NCBI RefSeq assembly: GCF_021021555.1
Contig: NZ_JAINWA010000001.1
Span: forward strand, 1-64,000
Direction of reading: 5' to 3'
Origin: Teretinema zuelzerae
Lineage (GTDB): Bacteria > Spirochaetota > Spirochaetia > Treponematales > Treponemataceae
DNA: 64,000 nt
In this document: one piece after another, positions 34,244-48,268 of the stretch
Numbering within the stretch: position 1 is the first letter of the stretch
Layout of the letters: every line of letters starts with the position of its first letter
The notes under the pieces: generated by a model
The model's database searches: none
Told to the model about the DNA's origin: nothing
Seen by the model: the letters and a program-made list of their open reading frames with translations, nothing else
Program-made: the position numbers and the translations under genes

Positions 34244-37200
34244 ATGAAACGAGGTACGCTATCGGGTTTTCGCGCGCTCGCGATCAAAACTGCTCTCCTT
34301 GTCGTTCTGAGTTCCTGTTCGAAGGATCTTCCCTTCGAGCGGCTGGCGGAATTCGCAGTTCCAGAACAGCCGGCGCCGAAAGGCTTCGCCGTTCAAACTG
34401 ACGACGCTCCGGGAGGGAGGATTGAACGGTCTCCGATGAAAACCGCCTACGAGGCAGGAGAGCTTGTTCGAGTCTCCGCCCTTCCCTCGGCCGGCTGGGA
34501 GTTTTCAGGCTGGGGCGGCACGATCTCGGGAACGGAAAAGACGACGGAGAATCCGCTCGTCCTGAACGTCGAAAAAGACGAGTGGATCATTCCACGCTTC
34601 GCGCGCGTTCCCGAACCGGCAGTACCGCCGCCGCCCGACCCGGAACCCGTCTGGTCGATCCGCTGCGACTCGGCTCGCGGAGGAATCGCGGAAACCTCGC
34701 CGATTAAAACCGGATACGCCACCGGAGAACTCGTAAAAATGACGGCCGTTGCTGACGAAGGATGGACCTTCGCCGGATGGTTCGGCACGGCGGAAACGGA
34801 TTCGCTCGATCCGGTGCTGGTGATCCAGGCGGCGCGGGACGAATGGATAATTCCCCGATTTACGGAAATCCCCGCGCCCGACGCTCCGCCGGAGGAACCG
34901 CGATGGACGCTACGGGTCGACGGAGCCGAGGGCGGAGTCGCGAGCTTTGAGCCGGGAAGCTCGAGCTACGCTTCAGGCGATTATGTAAAGCTTTCGGCTG
35001 AATGCTCTGAAGGATGGCGTTTCCTCGGTTGGACGGGAACGGCTGAAAGCGCGTCGAACCCGCTCATTATTACTATTGAACGGAGCGAATGGATCGTGCC
35101 CCTGTTCGAGAAAATTCCCGAACCTCCGATTGAAGAGATCCCGGAACCGGTCCGCTGGAAGATCCGCGTCGATGATCGGCCAGGCGGAAGCGTTACAGCG
35201 GAACCGGAGAAAACAGAATACGAAGACGGCGAACAGGTGCGGTTGATCGCGCAATGCGAAAGCGGCTGGAAATTCGCCGGCTGGAGCGGAACGCTGGAAA
35301 AATCGGGATCGATGGATGTCGGCGACGAAATACTCCTCATCGAAGCGCGGGCGAACGAGTGGATTATTCCGCTTTTCAGAGAAGAAGCTGAAGTTCTCCC
35401 CGAGCCGCCGCCTGAACGTTTTACCGTAAAAATAGACTCTGCCGAGGGAGGATCGGTCGAACGGTCTCCCGCTTCCATGGATTATGCGCCTGGAGAATTC
35501 GTCAGGCTCGCCGCGACGGCGCAAGCCGGTTGGGAGTTCGCCGGATGGTCGGGAACCATCGGCGACAGTGCGGCAACCGGAATCCGCAACAATCCATACA
35601 TCCTCGAAGTGCGGCGAAACGAGTGGATCATCCCGGTCTTCAGCAGAATCCCGGAGCCTGAACCGAAACCCGAGCCCGAACCCGAGCCTCCGCCGAGATT
35701 GTATACCCTCAAAACCGAATCTTCGGCCGGAGGATCAGTACGCGCGGTTCCTTCGAAGACGGGCTATGCGGAAGGCGAGTATGCAAGAATTACGGCGGTT
35801 CCCTCGCCCGGCTGGCGATTCAGCGGTTGGAGCGGAACATACGCGGGCACTGAAGACGACATTTTTATCCGCATGACGGACGACCAGTGGATTGTCGCCA
35901 AGTTCGCTTTAATTCCGGTCGCGGCGGAATACACGCTAAACTCGACCGTTTCGGGAAGCGGCCGGATCATCCGCTCTCCGGAGAAGGCCGTGTATGCGGC
36001 CGGCGAGACGGTCGAACTGGCAGCCGAGCCTTCCCCCGGATACCGCTTCGTCGAATGGACGGGAGATCTTTCCGGGGACGCGGAAAACGAGACCATCAAG
36101 ATGAACGCGAATGCCTCGGTATCCGCGCGATTCGAAAAAAGAGAATGGACCTTCATCGTATATATGGCGGCAGACAACGATCTGGAAGCGGCGGCTATTC
36201 TCGATATCAATGAAATGGAAGCGGCGGAAACCGGCTCGATGAAGGGAGACATCCTGGTGTTGATCGACAGGAGCCCCGCCTACGATTCAACGAACGGAAA
36301 CTGGAGCGACACGAGGCTCTACAAAATCAAGCGGGACCCGGCCGGATCCGACACGGTAATCCGGTCGCAGAGAATCGAGTGCCCCGCGCTCGGCATAACG
36401 GAGAACCAGCAGACGGAGCTCGATCTCGCGCTCCCGAGCACGCTTTCGCTGTTGCTCGACCACGCGAAGACGGCGTATCCGGCGGCGAATTACGGGCTCA
36501 TTTTCTGGGGCCACGGTACCGGCTGGAGGTCGGATGAAACTGCGGGCGGAAGTCCCGCAGAAAGCATGAAGGCCCTGGCCATAGACGATACGTCGGGAAC
36601 TTCCATGACCCTCGCGCAGGCGGGAAACGCCGTTCGAAACAGGGGGATCGCCGCGATCGGCATGGATACCTGCTTCGGAGGAATATTAGAAGTGGCGAGG
36701 GAATTTTCGGATTGCGCCGCATGGCTCGTCGGATCGCCGGGAGCGATTCCTTCCGCCGGCTGGAATTACGCGGCGCTGTTCACCCTCTTCGGAACAAGCT
36801 CACTGACCGCTGAACAATTCGCCTCCGCGGCCGTGGATCAGTTTCGCGTCCAATACGCGCTGACTCCGAATACCGGCATATCGGCGATACGTCTTTCGGC
36901 CGTCCCTGCGCTCTCGTCCGTCTTCAACGCCTTCATGGAAAATGCGGCCGCGGGGATTCAAAACAGATCGTCTCAGACTCTTCTTAAATCGATTGCCATG
37001 GATGATTCGCGGCTATATCGATTCGCTTCATACCCGACCGATTCCTATATCGATATCAGGTCGTTCGCAGATTTGATTCTCTCGGCGCGCGACGGACTTT
37101 TTTCTTCGGCGACAATAAAAAACCGCGCCCTTACGCAGGCCGCAAGCCTTAAAACCGCGCTGAACGCGGCTGTTCCCCTCGGCTGGGAACAGGGAGGTCA

Positions 37201-37402
37201 AGGCGAAGGGCATATGGGCGTCCACCTCATTCCGCTGATGGCTCAGGGAACGCCGAAGGCGAGCCACGAGGCGGGCTACATTCGCGGATCGGGAGCGGCG
37301 AATCAAAGCCGCTTCGTCCTTGAATCTACCGGATGGGTCCCGAACAAGACTGCCGCGGGCAGCCTCCTGGACAAACTCTTTTATACCTATTTTGAGGATT
37401 AA
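34244..37402 (+). CDS. Lipoprotein with seven InlB-type repeats and a clostripain (C11) protease
   Basis: The 1052-residue protein has a lipoprotein signal ending VVLSSC (Cys25). Between about residues 50 and 630 are seven repeats of the divergent InlB B-repeat type, each with GG-x-(I/V)-x-x-P, a YxxGE step and GWxFxGWxG. These are joined by Pro/Glu-rich spacers (PEPEPKPEPEPEPPP). The C-terminal 420 residues are a C11 peptidase: WTFIVYMAADNDLE, then LIFWGHGTGW (His757) and GMDTCFGG (Cys810), the catalytic dyad. Clostripain-type enzymes cut after Arg or Lys. As a lipoprotein beside the secretion and Rhs genes, it may be exported and process the toxin or surface targets; that link is inference. 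Confidence 0.85.
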   Translation: MKRGTLSGFRALAIKTALLVVLSSCSKDLPFERLAEFAVPEQPAPKGFAVQTDDAPGGRIERSPMKTAYEAGELVRVSALPSAGWEFSGWGGTISGTEKTTENPLVLNVEKDEWIIPRFARVPEPAVPPPPDPEPVWSIRCDSARGGIAETSPIKTGYATGELVKMTAVADEGWTFAGWFGTAETDSLDPVLVIQAARDEWIIPRFTEIPAPDAPPEEPRWTLRVDGAEGGVASFEPGSSSYASGDYVKLSAECSEGWRFLGWTGTAESASNPLIITIERSEWIVPLFEKIPEPPIEEIPEPVRWKIRVDDRPGGSVTAEPEKTEYEDGEQVRLIAQCESGWKFAGWSGTLEKSGSMDVGDEILLIEARANEWIIPLFREEAEVLPEPPPERFTVKIDSAEGGSVERSPASMDYAPGEFVRLAATAQAGWEFAGWSGTIGDSAATGIRNNPYILEVRRNEWIIPVFSRIPEPEPKPEPEPEPPPRLYTLKTESSAGGSVRAVPSKTGYAEGEYARITAVPSPGWRFSGWSGTYAGTEDDIFIRMTDDQWIVAKFALIPVAAEYTLNSTVSGSGRIIRSPEKAVYAAGETVELAAEPSPGYRFVEWTGDLSGDAENETIKMNANASVSARFEKREWTFIVYMAADNDLEAAAILDINEMEAAETGSMKGDILVLIDRSPAYDSTNGNWSDTRLYKIKRDPAGSDTVIRSQRIECPALGITENQQTELDLALPSTLSLLLDHAKTAYPAANYGLIFWGHGTGWRSDETAGGSPAESMKALAIDDTSGTSMTLAQAGNAVRNRGIAAIGMDTCFGGILEVAREFSDCAAWLVGSPGAIPSAGWNYAALFTLFGTSSLTAEQFASAAVDQFRVQYALTPNTGISAIRLSAVPALSSVFNAFMENAAAGIQNRSSQTLLKSIAMDDSRLYRFASYPTDSYIDIRSFADLILSARDGLFSSATIKNRALTQAASLKTALNAAVPLGWEQGGQGEGHMGVHLIPLMAQGTPKASHEAGYIRGSGAANQSRFVLESTGWVPNKTAAGSLLDKLFYTYFED

Positions 37403-37403
37403 C

Positions 37404-40400
37404 ATGATGAAAACACCCAGTAAACGGATTTTAGCCGCCATGCTTATTTCATGGCTGACGAGCGCTCATGCTCAGAATACGCCGGGACAGACATACGTCA
37501 GCTACGACTCTGTAAACGGAAGAACGACCTACACAGTGCCGGGAGGAGAAGCGGAAAGCGGAGGCGAAAGCGGCGGTTCGAGCGCCGGAGACAGCACCAA
37601 CGCCGATATTGCGGAAGCTGAATCGATCGTCTCGGAAGCCGCATCGCTTAAGACGGAAGTTGCCGCGGAAACAGATAAATCGAAGGAAGCAGCTGAAACC
37701 GCAAAGGCAGAAGTCTCCGAGGAAAAGGCGAACGCCGATTCCGACAAAGCGGGAGATCCGGTCAGGATAACGACGGGCGAGTTCTATCTTGAAGAATCGG
37801 ACTTCGAGTTTCCGCGGATCTACGCGAGCAATTCTCCCGGCGGTCCTTCCTTCGGGAAAGGGTGGTTTTTCTTCGCCGATTCGCGCATCATCCGCGGAGT
37901 CGATATCGGAGCGCTCAGCGCGAAAAACAGAATCAAAAGCCGGATAATCGATCCGCTTCAAGAAAAATGGGAGCGCGCCGATCTTCTCGCCGCCCGGACG
38001 GCGTCCTGCGCGGATGAAGCCCGGGAAGCGAAACGCATATTGAATGAAGCGCTCGAAGAATACGAACTCGTCAGGGATCAGGCAGATCGCGCAATGGCTC
38101 TCGCGTCCCGCAACACGCTGTCCTGGTGGAGCGGATTGCCGATTGGATGGATGGGCATAGGAAACGACTCGTTGCTCTTGATAAATCCCGAAGGAGTTCC
38201 GCATATTTTCATTCCGGACGGCGCCGGCGAATGGAAAGCCCTCGACCCGGACGCGGCCCGAACCGACAGGATCGCCAGCATCGACCGCGCGGACGCGCTT
38301 TCAGCGCAAGGGTTCGTGTATACCGCATCGGACGGCGCATCGTACCGCTACGATTCAAACGGACTGCTGATCCGGGCGGAAAAACGCAATCCTTACGGAG
38401 ACCCGCTGATTCGGGAAATCTCGCGGAATACAGCGACCGGCGGAATACGGGAAATCATCGACGCCTACGGGTACCGGTACGCGGTCGAAGGCGAGAGGCA
38501 GCGCATCGACGCGATCGTCGACCCGCTGGGGAGAAAAATCGTATACAACCATGGAAGCGACGCGTTGAGTTCCGTCACGGACTTTGAAAACGACTCGATA
38601 GGATACGGGTATTCCCTGGGCAGATTGGCCGAAATCGTAAAACCCATGAACGCGAAAACAAAAATCATTTACGGACAAACCGATCGGAAAGGAAGGCCTC
38701 TGGTTACCGAAACCGTTAACGAGGAAGGACACCCGGAATATTTTGAGTACCGCCCGGCTGAACGGAAAACGCTGTGGACCTCTCCGGACGGAGACAGAAA
38801 AATAATCGAGTGGGATGAATTGCACCGGACGGTATCGATCGAGGAAAGCGGAAAGCCGACTATCAGATATATCAGAGATCAGGCGACCGGAGACGTGCTC
38901 CGGGAAGAAAGCATGCAGGGAACGACCGTGCATGAATACGACCAGCGGGGAAACAGAACAACGACGCTTTATCCCGACGGTTCGCGCGAGATTCTGAGCT
39001 TCGATGAAAACGACCGGCTCGTCGAGCGACTAAGCCGGGGCGGAACGCTTGAAACCTATCAATGGGATGCATGGGGAGTATCCGGAGTCTTCAGAGAAGG
39101 ACGGCCTCTTAAAACGATCGAGCGGAATCAAAACGGATTCATCGTCAAAATCGTTGAAGACGGAAAATACATCGCGAACATCCAACGCGATGCGCATAAC
39201 AAACCGATACGGATTCTCCAGGGTGCAGGAGACGAAATCATCCAGTCCGATCTTGCGTGGGACTCGGCGGGACGAATAATTTCTTTCATCGACGGCGAAC
39301 GAAGAAAAATTGAATGGAAATACGGACGCCATGCAATGATAATTTTCGATCAGGCTGGCCTCGAAACCTCGTGGAAATGGAATAGCAGAAAAGACATCGT
39401 CGAGATTATCGAGAAGGACACGGTGGGCGGAGAAACGAGAAAAAGGGAAACAGTATTCGACAAACGGCACCTGCCCCTCAAGGAAACGCTGAACGGAAAG
39501 GAAATCGCGCGATACGCCTGGACGGCCAAAGGAAAAAAAGCGTCGATCATCCGGGGGAGACTCCGCACGGACTTTGCATATTCAATAGAAGGAAAAGAAG
39601 AGCTGACGCAAACATATGCCGGCAGCGAACCGTTCCGCATCGTCAGGACTAAAGAGCTAACGCCGTCCGGAGCGATCATCACCGTTCAGGACGGGTCGAA
39701 TAGAGCGCAAACGCTGCGCTACGACAGCGAAAACCGGCTGTTATCGAAGCAAAGCGGAAATCTCGCGCCTGAATCTTTTGCATGGGACCCTGACGGATCT
39801 ATCGCCCGATTAGAAACCCGCCTGGGAGGAATCGTCGACCTGCAGGGAAACAAAAAAACCGGAGAGTTCAAACAGTTCCGAAACGGCGAACTGGCTTCGC
39901 GGATGGTTAAGAGCCCTGCGGGTAAAATTCTTGAATACACCGACGAAAACGGAAGCCTCGTTTCAAACGAATACGATTCGACTGGTTTTTTGATTCGGGA
40001 ACGACGCAGCGCCGGATTTGTTTCGTACGAACGGGATAAGACGGGAACAGCGGTTTCGCGGAACGTGTTCGGTGCCGACGGAGAGTTGATCGAATCAGTG
40101 TCGATATCGCGCTCGCATGATCTTCGCTCTGCGGTCGTCCTGGAAGGCGGAATATACCGCAGGGAATACCGGCTCAACGGATGGGGGGAAGTCACAGGAT
40201 TCGCCGACGGGGAAAACAACCTCCGCTCGTTTGATCGGGACGCGTTCGGCCGCGTTGAGGTCGAAACCGATCCGTACGGAAATGAGACCCGCTATGAATA
40301 CGACGATTTCGGGGAGATTTCGAAAATCGTGTATTGCGACGGCTCCTTCGAGGCATACGAACGAAACTCGGCAGGACTCGTCGTCCGGGAAACAGACGCA

Positions 40401-42815
40401 GCTGGAGTTTCGGCAGAATACGACTACGACGCAGGAGGCAGACGCATCTCCGAATATACACGCGGAGGGGTGCGCCTTTCCCGTACATTTGATGATAGCG
40501 GGCGGACGCAAACGCTTAACCGTGGAGACGATAACGCCCTCGTCTTCAATTTCGAATATTCTTCCGACGGAAAAACTATCGCTTCCAAAGACGCTTCCGG
40601 AAACTCCATGATCTCGGTCTTCGACGGATTCGGCCGCCTGGTCGGGGAAACAAACAGACTGCATGTTTCATCGACGCATCGGTGGGATGCCCGAAGCCGC
40701 GCGATAGAAGGCATCGATGGAAACGGGGTCAAGACTTCAAGGAGATATATCTCGGACGGAAGCAAAATAATCGAAGAAACCGGCGGCGGCGGCAGAATCG
40801 AAATAATCAAGGACGCCGCCGGAAGGGAGATCGCGAGAGGCAACGACACGACGAAAATCGAATTCGATTTCGATCAGGCTGGACGAATCGTCGGACAGAA
40901 AGATGCGTTGAGCGGCGCTGAAATGCAATTCTTCTATGATAAGGCCGGTCGGATGATCCGCGCGAAGGGAAGCGGGAGAGACGTCAGACGGCGGTTGGGA
41001 AAAAACGATGAAATCCTGGAACTAAGGGATCTGTCCAACGGGTTAACGATAACGTTCGCATACGATGCTCGAGGAAGAGAAATTCGCAGAACCTTCGCTA
41101 ACGGCATACAGATCGAGCGCGGATACGACGAGGCGGGAAGAATCAGTTGGATACGCGAAAAAAAGATAACAGGGGAAATACTGAGAGCCGAAGCGTGGGC
41201 TTACGATGAAAACGGAAGGCGCCGGCTGGGGGTCGACGAAGAGGGAATGATAACGCGATACTCATGGAATTCGCGCGGAGAGCTGGTCTGCGCAGAAACG
41301 CCGGCGGATGCGGAGGGAGGAGATGGGTTGGAGCGGGTTATTTTTTCGCCTGAAGACATCCGCACGGCTGTTTCGCTCATGGGGAAATTTCTACCCGGTG
41401 CGGCTCCCTCAGTCAGCGAATCGCAGGTGGTCCGCAAAGAACGCTATGCCTACGACCAAAATGGAAACATGACCGAAATCAGGCTCGGAGGAAGTTCTAT
41501 TCGAATGGAATACGACGCGGAAAACAGATTGACTAAGCGAGGCGAGGCCTCATTTTCGTACGATAAAAACGGCAATCTCGTGAAAATGTTTGACTTGCGA
41601 AATTCGCTAGTATGCTCGTATAATGACAAAAACAGGATGGTCCGTTCGGTCGTTGCCGACGGAATGAGAAACTCGATCGTATCGACGGATTACGCGTACG
41701 ACGGGTACGGCCGGCGCTCGTCTATCCAGGATGACGGAGCCGGAGCTATGGTCGCCAGTTATATCGGCACGGAGTTTGATATGTTTTCAGTGAAGCCTGT
41801 TCAATCTGCCGCTTTCGCTACCGACGATTCTTCCGGCTCGAGGTATCGATGGATCGGAGATGCCGAGTCCTCCCGCTCGACTTCCGTGCCGTCGCCGTCC
41901 GGCGGTGAGACTGCGCATTCGCTGTCATCCCGCGAGCTTCTGACCCTGGGAGGATTCCCGGCGGCTTCATCGGTCGACGGAGCGAACTACTACTACGGAA
42001 TATCCGTGAACGAATCCGTCGCCTCTCTCTCCGACGAGTCCGGCGCTTTCCAAAAGCTGCCGCGCATGAACGCGTTCGGCGGAATCGATGAACTCGCTTC
42101 AAACTCGTCTCTGCTCGGTTCATCCGTATTCGACCATCCCTCCTTCGTCTCCAAATACCGCTCGCCCGCCACCAGTTTGATGGACTTCGGCTACCGCGAC
42201 TACGCCCCCTCCCTCGCCCGCTTCACCACCCCCGACCCCATCCGCGACGGCTACAACTGGTACACCTACTGCGCCTCCGACCCGATTAATTTCGTGGACT
42301 TGTGGGGATTACTCCTTACGCTTTCTGTGGATAAGGACAGTCAAAAGATGACCATTACATTTAAGGACGGTCAAATAACATCGACTAAAACAATCAATGT
42401 TACAACAGCTGTTGTGTCAAAAAAAAACAGTAAGAATAATACAACATTTAATGAAGACGCCAACCGCACTCAACAAACAGGCGACTCAACTACGCATCCC
42501 ACTCAATTTCCTAACGGAACATATGATGTTACCGGCACTATGAAACCAAGCGATTCAAGGTTTGGAGAAACGCAATTTATCACGAACGCTTCGCAAATGT
42601 TGAAAAACACAGAAGGCAATTTTGTTAAGGACATGGGGTATAATATTCATTTTACACCATTGACAAATACAAATGGCTGCATTGGTATTCTTAATCAAGC
42701 GGATATGGATTCTCTTCTCAGTATTCATGCTATGAACGTCGACACTTTTGACAACAGAACGATTGTTAACGTATTTGGAAATTCAACAGTAGGCGAGGGA
42801 AACAAAAACAAATGA
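37404..42815 (+). CDS. Sec-signalled Rhs/YD-repeat polymorphic toxin with a YkuD-like C-terminal tip
   Basis: The start ATG 37404 (MMKTPSKRILAAML) follows GAGGATTAAC. The 1803-residue protein has a signal peptide (cleavage near SAHA-QNT), a Glu/Ala-rich helical region (60-130), a DUF6531-like entry (GDPVRITTGEFYLEESDFEFPRIY), and many YD repeats (YDSENRLLSKQSG, YDEAGRISWIREK). The Rhs core ends at YRDYAPSLARFTTPDPIRDG and NFVDLWG (residue about 1634). The last 170 residues are a different, AT-rich domain with GTYDVTG, YNIHFTP and NTNGCIGIL. This is the His...GC(I) signature of YkuD-like L,D-transpeptidases (Tlde1-type toxins), which attack peptidoglycan. It is the last large gene of the secretion operon. 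Confidence 0.87.
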   Translation: MMKTPSKRILAAMLISWLTSAHAQNTPGQTYVSYDSVNGRTTYTVPGGEAESGGESGGSSAGDSTNADIAEAESIVSEAASLKTEVAAETDKSKEAAETAKAEVSEEKANADSDKAGDPVRITTGEFYLEESDFEFPRIYASNSPGGPSFGKGWFFFADSRIIRGVDIGALSAKNRIKSRIIDPLQEKWERADLLAARTASCADEAREAKRILNEALEEYELVRDQADRAMALASRNTLSWWSGLPIGWMGIGNDSLLLINPEGVPHIFIPDGAGEWKALDPDAARTDRIASIDRADALSAQGFVYTASDGASYRYDSNGLLIRAEKRNPYGDPLIREISRNTATGGIREIIDAYGYRYAVEGERQRIDAIVDPLGRKIVYNHGSDALSSVTDFENDSIGYGYSLGRLAEIVKPMNAKTKIIYGQTDRKGRPLVTETVNEEGHPEYFEYRPAERKTLWTSPDGDRKIIEWDELHRTVSIEESGKPTIRYIRDQATGDVLREESMQGTTVHEYDQRGNRTTTLYPDGSREILSFDENDRLVERLSRGGTLETYQWDAWGVSGVFREGRPLKTIERNQNGFIVKIVEDGKYIANIQRDAHNKPIRILQGAGDEIIQSDLAWDSAGRIISFIDGERRKIEWKYGRHAMIIFDQAGLETSWKWNSRKDIVEIIEKDTVGGETRKRETVFDKRHLPLKETLNGKEIARYAWTAKGKKASIIRGRLRTDFAYSIEGKEELTQTYAGSEPFRIVRTKELTPSGAIITVQDGSNRAQTLRYDSENRLLSKQSGNLAPESFAWDPDGSIARLETRLGGIVDLQGNKKTGEFKQFRNGELASRMVKSPAGKILEYTDENGSLVSNEYDSTGFLIRERRSAGFVSYERDKTGTAVSRNVFGADGELIESVSISRSHDLRSAVVLEGGIYRREYRLNGWGEVTGFADGENNLRSFDRDAFGRVEVETDPYGNETRYEYDDFGEISKIVYCDGSFEAYERNSAGLVVRETDAAGVSAEYDYDAGGRRISEYTRGGVRLSRTFDDSGRTQTLNRGDDNALVFNFEYSSDGKTIASKDASGNSMISVFDGFGRLVGETNRLHVSSTHRWDARSRAIEGIDGNGVKTSRRYISDGSKIIEETGGGGRIEIIKDAAGREIARGNDTTKIEFDFDQAGRIVGQKDALSGAEMQFFYDKAGRMIRAKGSGRDVRRRLGKNDEILELRDLSNGLTITFAYDARGREIRRTFANGIQIERGYDEAGRISWIREKKITGEILRAEAWAYDENGRRRLGVDEEGMITRYSWNSRGELVCAETPADAEGGDGLERVIFSPEDIRTAVSLMGKFLPGAAPSVSESQVVRKERYAYDQNGNMTEIRLGGSSIRMEYDAENRLTKRGEASFSYDKNGNLVKMFDLRNSLVCSYNDKNRMVRSVVADGMRNSIVSTDYAYDGYGRRSSIQDDGAGAMVASYIGTEFDMFSVKPVQSAAFATDDSSGSRYRWIGDAESSRSTSVPSPSGGETAHSLSSRELLTLGGFPAASSVDGANYYYGISVNESVASLSDESGAFQKLPRMNAFGGIDELASNSSLLGSSVFDHPSFVSKYRSPATSLMDFGYRDYAPSLARFTTPDPIRDGYNWYTYCASDPINFVDLWGLLLTLSVDKDSQKMTITFKDGQITSTKTINVTTAVVSKKNSKNNTTFNEDANRTQQTGDSTTHPTQFPNGTYDVTGTMKPSDSRFGETQFITNASQMLKNTEGNFVKDMGYNIHFTPLTNTNGCIGILNQADMDSLLSIHAMNVDTFDNRTIVNVFGNSTVGEGNKNK

Positions 42816-43471
42816 ATAGCAGAACCCTAACCTTTATCCCATTGCTCCTTTTCTTGATCTTCCTTTCCAGCTTTTTCATCAGTTGCAATACATCTGAGTA
42901 TATTGTTGATTTTGATTCGACAAATGACACCTCGAAAATACTGGCAGTGTCAAAAAATAAGGAAAGGATCATTCTTGACGAGTACCCCCTATTTCCTGGA
43001 CTAACAAGAGATAGCATATTAGTGAATAGAGCTGGAGCATTCTATGAAAATGGAAACGTTCTTGTTATGGTACCAAATAAAAATACAACAAAAAATATTA
43101 TAGCATGGAATGATTTTTCATATTTAATCGATATTATTTTTATTGAGCCCGGAAATAAAAGAATCACGACGCTTTTCAGCAATCATGATAGTTATGTCAG
43201 CATTGTACCAGATGCAAAAGCAACACATGCGATAATCGCATTCGATAGAGATAAGACGCTGACTCTGCTTCGTGTAGACCAAAAAGGAAAAATACTTCAG
43301 GAGGTTCAATACAAATATCGTGTGCTATATCCTGATTTCATCGGCGTAACAGAAAAAACCGGGAAAGAAGTTATCACCTTATCATGTATTGAAAATGAAG
43401 AGAAAATTTCCATAGATTGGAAAAACGGAATCATCACGCAGATTTCGTATATGGAATCTCAATACGAATAA
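42812..43471 (+). CDS. Candidate immunity lipoprotein for the Rhs toxin
   Basis: The start overlaps the Rhs stop (ATGA). The 219-residue product has a lipoprotein signal (LLLFLIFLSSFFISC, Cys at about 25) and a beta-rich mature region (KILAVSKNKERIILDEYP, YVSIVPDAKATHAIIAF, LTLLRVDQKGKILQEV) that looks like a beta-propeller fragment. Immediately following the toxin tip, sharing its low GC, and being exported, it is well placed to neutralise a periplasmic peptidoglycan-acting toxin. No immunity family is recognised, so the role is inferred from context. Confidence 0.65.
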   Translation: MNSRTLTFIPLLLFLIFLSSFFISCNTSEYIVDFDSTNDTSKILAVSKNKERIILDEYPLFPGLTRDSILVNRAGAFYENGNVLVMVPNKNTTKNIIAWNDFSYLIDIIFIEPGNKRITTLFSNHDSYVSIVPDAKATHAIIAFDRDKTLTLLRVDQKGKILQEVQYKYRVLYPDFIGVTEKTGKEVITLSCIENEEKISIDWKNGIITQISYMESQYE

Positions 43472-43495
43472 TTCTTGAAATTCGACAAAACAACT

Positions 43496-43528
43496 GGTTA
43501 CTCCTATACTAGGGGTAACCGTTTTTTT
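43496..43528 (+). terminator. Terminator of the secretion/toxin operon
   Basis: Stem GGTTACTCC (43496-43504) with GGGGTAACC (43512-43520), 7-nt loop, then a T-run to 43528. It lies 24 bp past the immunity gene and marks the operon end. Confidence 0.88.
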
Positions 43529-47534: not shown

Positions 47535-47631
47535 ACTTCTATTATATCCACTCGCGCAAAAAAAGGAAATAAAATGCGTGCGCTCTCAACCTGCGGTAAG
47601 CTTAACACGCTTCACTTTTGCGCTCCCCGCC

Positions 47632-48268
47632 AACCGCCAGCGTACCTCGCTTTTCCGCGCGCACTCCCCGCCAACCGCCAGCGCGTCACGCTTTCCCGCG
47701 CGCTCACCGCCAACCGCCAGCGCCGCTCGCTTTCCCGCGCGCTCACCGCCAGCCGCCAGAGTACCTCGCTTTCCCGCGCGCGCTCACCGCCAACCGCCAG
47801 CGTACCTCGCTTTCCCGCGCGCTCACCGCTAACCGCCAGCGTACCTCGCTTTCCCGCGCGCTCTCACCGCCAACCGCCAGCGCAACACGCTTTCCCGCGC
47901 GCTCATTCGCCAACCGCCAGCGCAACACGCTTTCCCGCGCACTCACCGCTAACCGCCAGCGTACCTCGCTTTCCCGCGCGCACTCACCACCAACCGCCAG
48001 CGTACCTCGCTTTCCCGCGCGCTCCCCACCAACCGCCAGCGCGTCACGCTTTCCCGCGCGCTCCCCGCTAACCGCCAGCGTACCTCGCTTTCCCGCGCGC
48101 ACTCACCGCCAACCGCCAACGCCGCACGCTTTCCCGCGCGCTCACCGCTAACCGCCAGCGTACCTCGCTTTCCCGCGCACTCACCGCCAACCGCCAGCGT
48201 ACCTCGCTTTCCCGCGCGCACTCACCGCCAACCGCCAGCGTACCTCGCTTTCCCGCGCACTCCCCGCC
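47632..48268. repeat. 16-unit ~39-bp minisatellite with hairpin cores
   Basis: Sixteen units of 38-42 bp fill the gap between two minus-strand genes (47535-48301). Each has AACCGCCAG, then CG plus a variable five-base loop plus CGCT (AGCG-N5-CGCT stem), then TTCCCGCGCG and a CACC- or CCCC-ending joint. Loop variants include TACCT (most common), CGTCA, CCGCT, CAACA and CCGCA. Degenerate GCGGTAAG-containing sequences flank the array at both ends (47593-47600 and 48270-48277). Open frames running through it are by-products of the repeat. Confidence 0.9.

Follow-up and report, generated by a model that had tools for sequence, protein, structure and literature searches.

Introduction

Rhs/YD polymorphic toxins in general, among them WapA and the Rhs proteins of the type VI secretion system (T6SS), are built from YD repeats, a motif that ends the core and a variable C-terminal tip, with an adjacent gene. 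One such gene of the spirochaete Teretinema zuelzerae (family Treponemataceae) is the subject of this report. It lies within the first 64,000 nucleotides of contig NZ_JAINWA010000001.1 (assembly GCF_021021555.1), a stretch that we call the window, and we consider it likely that it encodes a peptidoglycan-cutting polymorphic toxin carried on a Sec-exported Rhs protein, and that the overlapping gene encodes its immunity protein, a periplasmic lipoprotein. A precedent exists in the Tox-LD-peptidase toxins predicted by Zhang et al. in 2012 (PMC3482391), which the portions of that paper used here associate with RHS repeats, the Sec pathway and wall-directed action, and whose immunity proteins are given there as secreted or transmembrane in a subset of cases. 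On the strength of those portions, an L,D-peptidase toxin on an Rhs protein, with exported immunity in some instances, is already predicted, and the treponeme cassette is a variant of it. The only other work we found that joins YkuD, Rhs, toxin and immunity was the structure of Tlde1a. Among the titles, opening lines of abstracts and selected passages covered by our literature search, no L,D-peptidase toxin was described in treponemes, for which one paper, in its tabulated portion, gives 0 complete secretion systems in each of ten genomes (PMC8049484).

Results and discussion

A predicted YkuD domain at the tip of an exported Rhs protein

The original prediction, made from the letters of the window alone, had pointed to an Rhs frame with the motifs GTYDVTG, YNIHFTP and NTNGCIGIL after NFVDLWG, followed by a lipoprotein gene overlapping by ATGA, and both elements were confirmed (coordinates in Table 1). 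The frame is open throughout and its product of 1803 amino acids (aa) begins with MMKTPSKRILAAMLISWLTSAHAQ, by inspection a signal peptide; an in-frame TTG at 37320, upstream of 37404, was judged a less likely start for the Rhs gene. The tip starts directly after ...DPINFVDLWG (codons through 42305) and contains all three motifs, the second as GYNIHFTP. The start of the next gene sits within the Rhs stop (42812-42815), and the encoded protein begins MNSRTLTFIPLLLFLIFLSSFFISC-N, a lipoprotein-type signal with the lipobox FISC.

Against 24736 Pfam families the tip alone matched YkuD (PF03734) with E 2.3e-4 and 22.2 bits (curated cut-off 23.4), and the same match within the whole protein has E 0.015, so that it is lost in a scan at E 0.01. 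Two relatives exceed the cut-off in the same type of search (G479 with 33 bits and G291 with 26.7 bits; loci and genomes are cited by our working numbers, L and G). In the whole 3.6 Mb genome the tip is the sole YkuD match at E <= 0.001, and is thus no redundant duplicate of a housekeeping enzyme. We aligned 22 tips of the family, leaving out a partial 23rd (G416, L051), and found YkuD at E <= 0.01 in 10 of them (best 7.6e-8); the only other Pfam family named was an Ig-like domain, in one member (0.0093). Comparison of the aligned tips with 34 spirochaete YkuD domains (L122, with an internal stop, being omitted) gave an hhalign probability of 65% (E 6e-5, 79 columns), and 89% in the reverse direction (E 2e-6). 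Controls against YkuD stayed at or below 0.5%. They comprised the tips in reverse, two Rhs tip groups unrelated to them (one of which was run reversed as well) and L077/L112/L113, a group counted here although it is YkuD-like by eye; two control groups set against the YkuD-type tips themselves scored 0.15 and 0.77. A search of 177635 PDB sequences with the 22-tip profile returned three at E < 1, all of them Bacillus subtilis YkuD and weak (0.029-0.084), with alignments spanning P-x-G, His and GC.

Five residues are invariant in all 22 aligned tips (G71, H115, T122, G124 and C125). The residue between the invariant Thr and Gly varies, being Asn in T. zuelzerae, and the His-to-Cys spacing is 9-10 residues by eye in 21 of the 22, the exception (L052) having a long loop and a canonical THGCIR. 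On these profile and motif comparisons, the prediction that the tip is a divergent YkuD (L,D-transpeptidase) domain holds. The YkuD side of the original prediction has therefore stood, whereas its link to Tlde1/DUF2778 fell away: PF10908 was without a match, even at E 10, in the T. zuelzerae genome and four relatives, and membership in that family was rejected. In the corresponding control, PF10908 matched 3 of 14 control genomes, none above the cut-off, and no Tlde1 match was seen among the 22 tips at E <= 0.01.

The least probable of the readings that we weighed is that the cassette is a dead remnant. It can appeal to the pseudogenes of bovine T. pedis, a number of them from RHS genes according to the relevant passage of PMC8049484, and to T. 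zuelzerae itself, whose two remaining Rhs core matches are followed by no tip in one case and by 103 aa in the other. Against it stand the open frame of the carrier, the retention of every invariant residue and the intact gene overlap.

The same tip on different carriers

Among 296 phylum genomes, a single-sequence search found the tip in 4, the T. zuelzerae genome included, all of one family. Within that family a 4-row tip profile had matches in 23 of 274 genomes, counting that of T. zuelzerae, and in 6 of 20 genera. With the 22-row profile, 9 of the 296 phylum genomes were matched, own included. Outside the family these matches are G203, from another family of the class, where an Rhs protein is followed by two tandem genes, related to each other and exported by eye, and G245, from the same order, which has a stand-alone exported YkuD-like protein. 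The single tip had no relatives in viral contigs, genome_contigs, plasmids or phages, nor did the 4-row alignment in viral contigs; two relatives are known from genome_contigs, on Treponema sp. contigs, one of them from water-buffalo rumen.

In the G203 locus (L161:1-2007 and L161:1980-3488) the tip is related and the tandem pair looks as if an immunity gene had been duplicated. In G091 (L163, minus strand, around mid-locus) a short stand-alone exported tip-like protein is followed by a protein with a discoidin-like end. The Pfam YkuD domain itself has few matches in the family, in 19 of 269 genomes; those in T. zuelzerae, G291 and G479 are the tips, and open frames of 147-445 aa contain the remaining 16. 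YkuD also occurs in long frames of other spirochaete families (G015:C34:85381-85743, 862 aa; G026:C1:779623-779886, 1030 aa), which are possibly further YkuD-bearing toxins.

By reading, the tip is carried in the 23 genomes by full-length Rhs proteins in 8 (own included), by an Rhs fragment or short orphan cassette in 9 and by a protein with a double-glycine (bacteriocin-type) leader in 4, with 2 unassigned. Seven of the 8 full-length Rhs carriers have a signal-like start by eye; in the eighth (L037) the start was not read. The four leaders (L032, L044, L045 and L046) end in ...EELLEVNGGK, ...EELLTVNGGK, ...EEMIQVNGG and ...DELKTKVIGGQ. All four genomes in which the carrier is of the leader type have a Peptidase_C39 exporter, whereas none was found at E <= 0.001 in the two further genomes searched, those of T. 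zuelzerae and G182, and in G218 the Peptidase_C39 domain (C53:18879-19274, minus strand) adjoins the toxin gene, which starts near C53:19454. In a tree of 22 tips the carrier types are interleaved, with 9 label changes where 3 would be the minimum, which is near the shuffled mean of 10.6 (a value as low occurred in 29 of 200 shuffles). One tip thus occurs on several kinds of carrier, and related carriers bear different tips, as in Rhs polymorphic toxins. Composition changes abruptly in the window as well: between the 120-base steps 42180-42299 and 42300-42419, the second of which holds the start of the tip, the G+C content (GC) falls from 0.64 to 0.38, and it stays low through the lipoprotein gene (tip 0.377, lipoprotein 0.353, Rhs carrier 0.547).

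L,D-transpeptidases are able to attach envelope proteins to the wall, and the tip could be the producer's own enzyme of this kind, linking the Rhs (or another) protein by a covalent bond to the producer's peptidoglycan with the lipoprotein as a helper and no warfare involved. The enzyme family is the same, and the genome holds no other YkuD match at E <= 0.001. We nevertheless regard this as quite improbable, given that the tip occurs on unrelated carriers and in orphan cassettes, that its GC is unlike that of the carrier, that the partner families vary as immunity genes do, and that wall hydrolases and nucleases are found among the family's other Rhs tips.

Exported partner genes and the putative immunity lipoprotein

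The gene after the tip scored as exported in 18 of 21 cases, versus 50 of 165 background open reading frames (ORFs; Fisher 1.3e-6), by a simple signal test and with a crude background set that contains spurious ORFs. The count is without L040 (contig end) and L051. Two of the three misses, L034 and L045, have next genes that look exported by eye, and in the third, L031 (G182), the partner gene is interrupted, its signal-like start and remainder lying in different frames.

Thirteen of the 21 partners (L031, L033-L039, L041, L043, L044, L050 and L052) share a C-terminal domain behind variable N-terminal regions. Pfam NADase_transloc and/or NCBIfam NADase_discoid name it, as a discoidin-type glycan-binding domain, in 9 of the 13; the assignments of the other four (L031, L036, L037 and L038) rest on BLAST and on our own profile, in which three of them are included. 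L045, L046 and L048 have partners of another family, and the three tips cluster as well. The discoidin-type domain also occurs in the genes after the tips L077, L112, L113 and L108, and in three places not traced to a tip (L032:5564-6484, L034:4677-5531 and L076:2370-3218), so that its specificity is uncertain; it was not found after M23, Amidase_2, NLPC_P60 or pesticin tips in the short flanking stretches available. The four tips L077, L112, L113 and L108 have a His and a later Cys motif and may be further L,D-transpeptidase-like toxins. The YkuD likeness seen by eye in three of them (L077/L112/L113) found no support in a profile comparison (0.46%), and only L112 had a weak Pfam match (0.0097).

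To place the tip among its neighbours in the family, where Rhs cores occur in 81 of 125 genomes, we read further loci. Of 42 Rhs core matches, 30 had a readable locus, comprising 10 YkuD tips, 4 tips of at most 81 aa, 1 near copy and 15 tips that were taken to Pfam; a further 26 loci came from among the best-scoring matches listed, of which 25 were read (L106, with a stop, being excluded) and 24 used (a 54-aa tip being dropped). The resulting 39 other tips (within L065-L119) are not a random sample. Pfam recognized wall hydrolases among them (M23 in two, Amidase_2, NLPC_P60 and a pesticin-type muramidase), together with HNH (two tips, close relatives of each other), GH-E, a glutamine deamidase, one weak YkuD and two weak, doubtful matches, and left 27 matchless. 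The next gene appeared exported in 30 of the 35 cases that could be judged, the exceptions being the two HNH tips, GH-E, L065 and L118. All five wall-hydrolase tips are followed by an exported gene and none of the three nuclease tips (two HNH and GH-E) is, a split that fits wall-directed tips needing periplasmic protectors.

This pattern also bears on a further reading, in which a YkuD-type fold has been redirected to a target other than the wall, such as proteins inside the target cell. The missing canonical inner His and a short His-to-Cys loop speak for this reading, but we hold it very improbable: the next gene is exported for 18 of the 21 tips while the three recognizable nuclease tips have non-exported next genes, and Tlde1a, with the same His-Cys spacing (H121, C131), acts on peptidoglycan according to the text of PMC9638812 that we draw on.

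The 219-aa lipoprotein itself is probably the immunity protein because its gene overlaps that of the tip, it bears an export signal and it shares the low GC of the tip. Its Pfam matches are three and weak (E 0.05-0.17), none of them an immunity family, and neither Imm16 nor Imm57 was found in a scan at E <= 0.01 of 10 of the 20 other partner genes, which gave NADase_transloc or nothing. Comparison with the 20 other partner proteins gave a faint hint of kinship to that of L042, which was dropped, one of 300 shuffles scoring as high (in one of the 20 comparisons) and the hhalign probability being 1.6. The lipoprotein could instead be a surface anchor or delivery partner of a toxin tip, as the passage on Neisseria in PMC3482391 proposes for MafA. 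Such a role would suit a lipoprotein for which the searched family genomes gave no relative and which is without the domain of 13 of the 21 partners. We think it improbable, for MafA is encoded upstream whereas the lipoprotein gene lies downstream of the carrier and overlaps the tip, and its GC matches the low value of the tip and not that of the carrier.

Weighing the evidence and a proposed mechanism

Several observations weigh against an L,D-peptidase toxin with a lipoprotein immunity protein. For the tip, the Pfam YkuD score is 1.2 bits under the curated cut-off, 12 of the 22 aligned tips fall short of E 0.01 against the same family, and the inner His of the canonical (S/T)HGC is an Asn. 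AlphaFold models were of too low confidence for use (mean pLDDT 39.8 for the tip with two relatives, as three sequences, and 47.4 for the lipoprotein alone). For the partner, no relative of the lipoprotein was found in 268 other genomes of the family, it lacks the discoidin-type domain of 13 of the 21 partner genes, and the closest tips (about 50% identical, L035/L036) are paired with an unrelated partner. For export as a mark of wall-directed tips, an exported gene also stands behind a glutamine-deamidase-type tip (L097), and at one HNH locus (L109) the gene in second place after the tip has a lipoprotein-like start.

The computed support is the family resemblance of the tip, its intact catalytic residues, its occurrence on different carriers and the export signals of carrier and partner. 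Taken together, the profiles, invariant residues, cassette behaviour and exported neighbours favour what the original prediction had proposed, namely a probable toxin tip of the YkuD type, borne by an Rhs protein that Sec exports, with a lipoprotein as its putative immunity protein. From here we infer toxicity, a substrate, direct binding by the lipoprotein and a route across outer membranes. Sec would export the Rhs protein, with the C-terminal tip as an antibacterial warhead of the cysteine L,D-transpeptidase/carboxypeptidase type, to be released from the Rhs shell at a neighbouring cell. In the periplasm of the target, Cys125 would act, together with His115, on the bond that follows the third residue of the peptidoglycan stem peptides, and the terminal D-amino acid would be trimmed or exchanged, weakening the wall. 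The lipoprotein, made together with the tip and periplasmic in the producer, would block it there.

The cassette is a concrete candidate for a means by which treponemes compete with their neighbours. It poses a testable question about the path of a Sec-exported Rhs protein out of one diderm cell and into another cell's periplasm, and it offers laboratory handles in a tip found on two unrelated export routes and in the discoidin-type domain of the partners.

Features of the locus and its surroundings

The features are collected in Table 1. The terminator-like hairpin after the lipoprotein gene is statistically weak, three such sites being present in the region versus 1.8 expected. The upstream neighbour of the Rhs gene (34244-37402) encodes a Peptidase_C11 of the clostripain type that starts like a lipoprotein and bears seven InlB-B-like repeats (Flg_new_2). 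Further downstream, 47574-48221 is repetitive, with overlapping ORFs bearing PPTASVPRFPARS-like repeats on both strands.

Table 1. Features of the Rhs tip locus of T. zuelzerae, in window coordinates.
Feature	Position	Strand	Basis
Rhs/YD-repeat carrier	37404..42815	+	Pfam RHS_repeat 4.4e-45, DUF6531 1.7e-5; TIGR03696 Rhs_assc_core 1e-14
Rhs signal peptide MMKTPSKRILAAMLISWLTSAHA|Q	37404..37472	+	Inspection of sequence
Rhs-associated core end (...DPIRDGYNWYTYCASDPINFVDLWG)	42075..42311	+	TIGR03696, E 6.3e-16
Putative toxin tip, 169 aa, divergent YkuD/L,D-transpeptidase-type	42306..42812	+	Pfam YkuD 2.3e-4 (under cut-off); hhalign 65-89%; family relatives
Catalytic-type His (tip residue 115)	42648..42650	+	Invariant, 22/22 aligned tips
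Thr-Asn-Gly-Cys at tip residues 122-125, equivalent to (S/T)HGC; Cys125 as presumed nucleophile	42669..42680	+	Thr, Gly and Cys invariant, 22/22
Putative immunity lipoprotein, 219 aa	42812..43471	+	ATGA overlap; lipobox FISC; low-GC block of the tip
Lipoprotein signal, lipidated Cys25 predicted	42812..42883	+	Sequence; simple h-region/lipobox test positive
Terminator-like hairpin and T run, 3' of the lipoprotein gene	43495..43521	+	12-pair stem, then TTTTTTT

Comparison with known systems

Within the literature searched, the apparently new elements are the treponeme clade, the dual carriers with carrier swapping, and the discoidin-type domain on 13 of the 21 partners; no paper on an NADase-type glycan-binding domain was found there. 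More tentatively, it is conceivable, though we would not yet put it above even chances, that spirochaetes of the Treponemataceae type possess an arsenal of polymorphic toxins that are sent to the periplasm of the target and stop there, in which exported Rhs and bacteriocin-type (double-glycine, C39-exported) carriers share interchangeable wall-cutting tips, and the exported protectors, often with a discoidin-type domain, are possibly held by it on wall or surface glycan at the site of toxin action.

Like the Tox-LD-peptidase toxins as described in the consulted sections of PMC3482391, the T. zuelzerae protein is an RHS toxin with a predicted terminal L,D-peptidase domain, a Sec signal and a linked candidate immunity gene of the kind that is exported in a subset of that family. 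The original prediction had expected a tip of the YkuD type to be unusual on a Sec-exported Rhs protein, which proved mistaken: the same paper lists Tox-LD-peptidase with RHS and Sec, and full-length Rhs proteins carry the tip in 8 genomes of the family. Of the conserved H, S and C printed for Tox-LD-peptidase, the T. zuelzerae-type tips keep H and C, the S position being Thr in 22 of 22. Differences are that spirochaetes are absent from the phyletic list printed there for Tox-LD-peptidase, and that the named immunity families, Imm16 and Imm57, were not found for the tip partners scanned. The term 'double-glycine' is absent from the main text of PMC3482391 and occurs once in its full record.

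The Tlde1 effectors of the T6SS are likewise altered L,D-transpeptidases serving as antibacterial toxins, and H121-C131 of Tlde1a and H115-C125 of the tip are both 10 residues apart; a sec signal of the immunity protein Tldi1a is mentioned in the methods (all from the portions of PMC9638812 used here). Unlike in Tlde1, PF10908 has no match in the five genomes scanned, the tip sits on an exported Rhs protein, and TNGC replaces (S/T)HGC.

B. subtilis YkuD (1y7m, 4a1i, 2mtz) is the bacterium's own enzyme and not a toxin tip. Its P-x-G, His and GC align with the tip profile, whereas its His-to-Cys distance is six residues longer and it has GCIRM where the tip has GCIGI. Finally, the hallmarks of Rhs/YD toxins such as WapA and the T6SS Rhs proteins, namely YD repeats, core-end motif, variable tip and adjacent gene, are all present in T. 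zuelzerae. What sets the locus apart from them is a carrier that matched neither PAAR nor VgrG in the Pfam and NCBIfam scans and that has a signal peptide, a spirochaete host, and a family in which 30 of 35 other Rhs tips are likewise followed by an exported gene.

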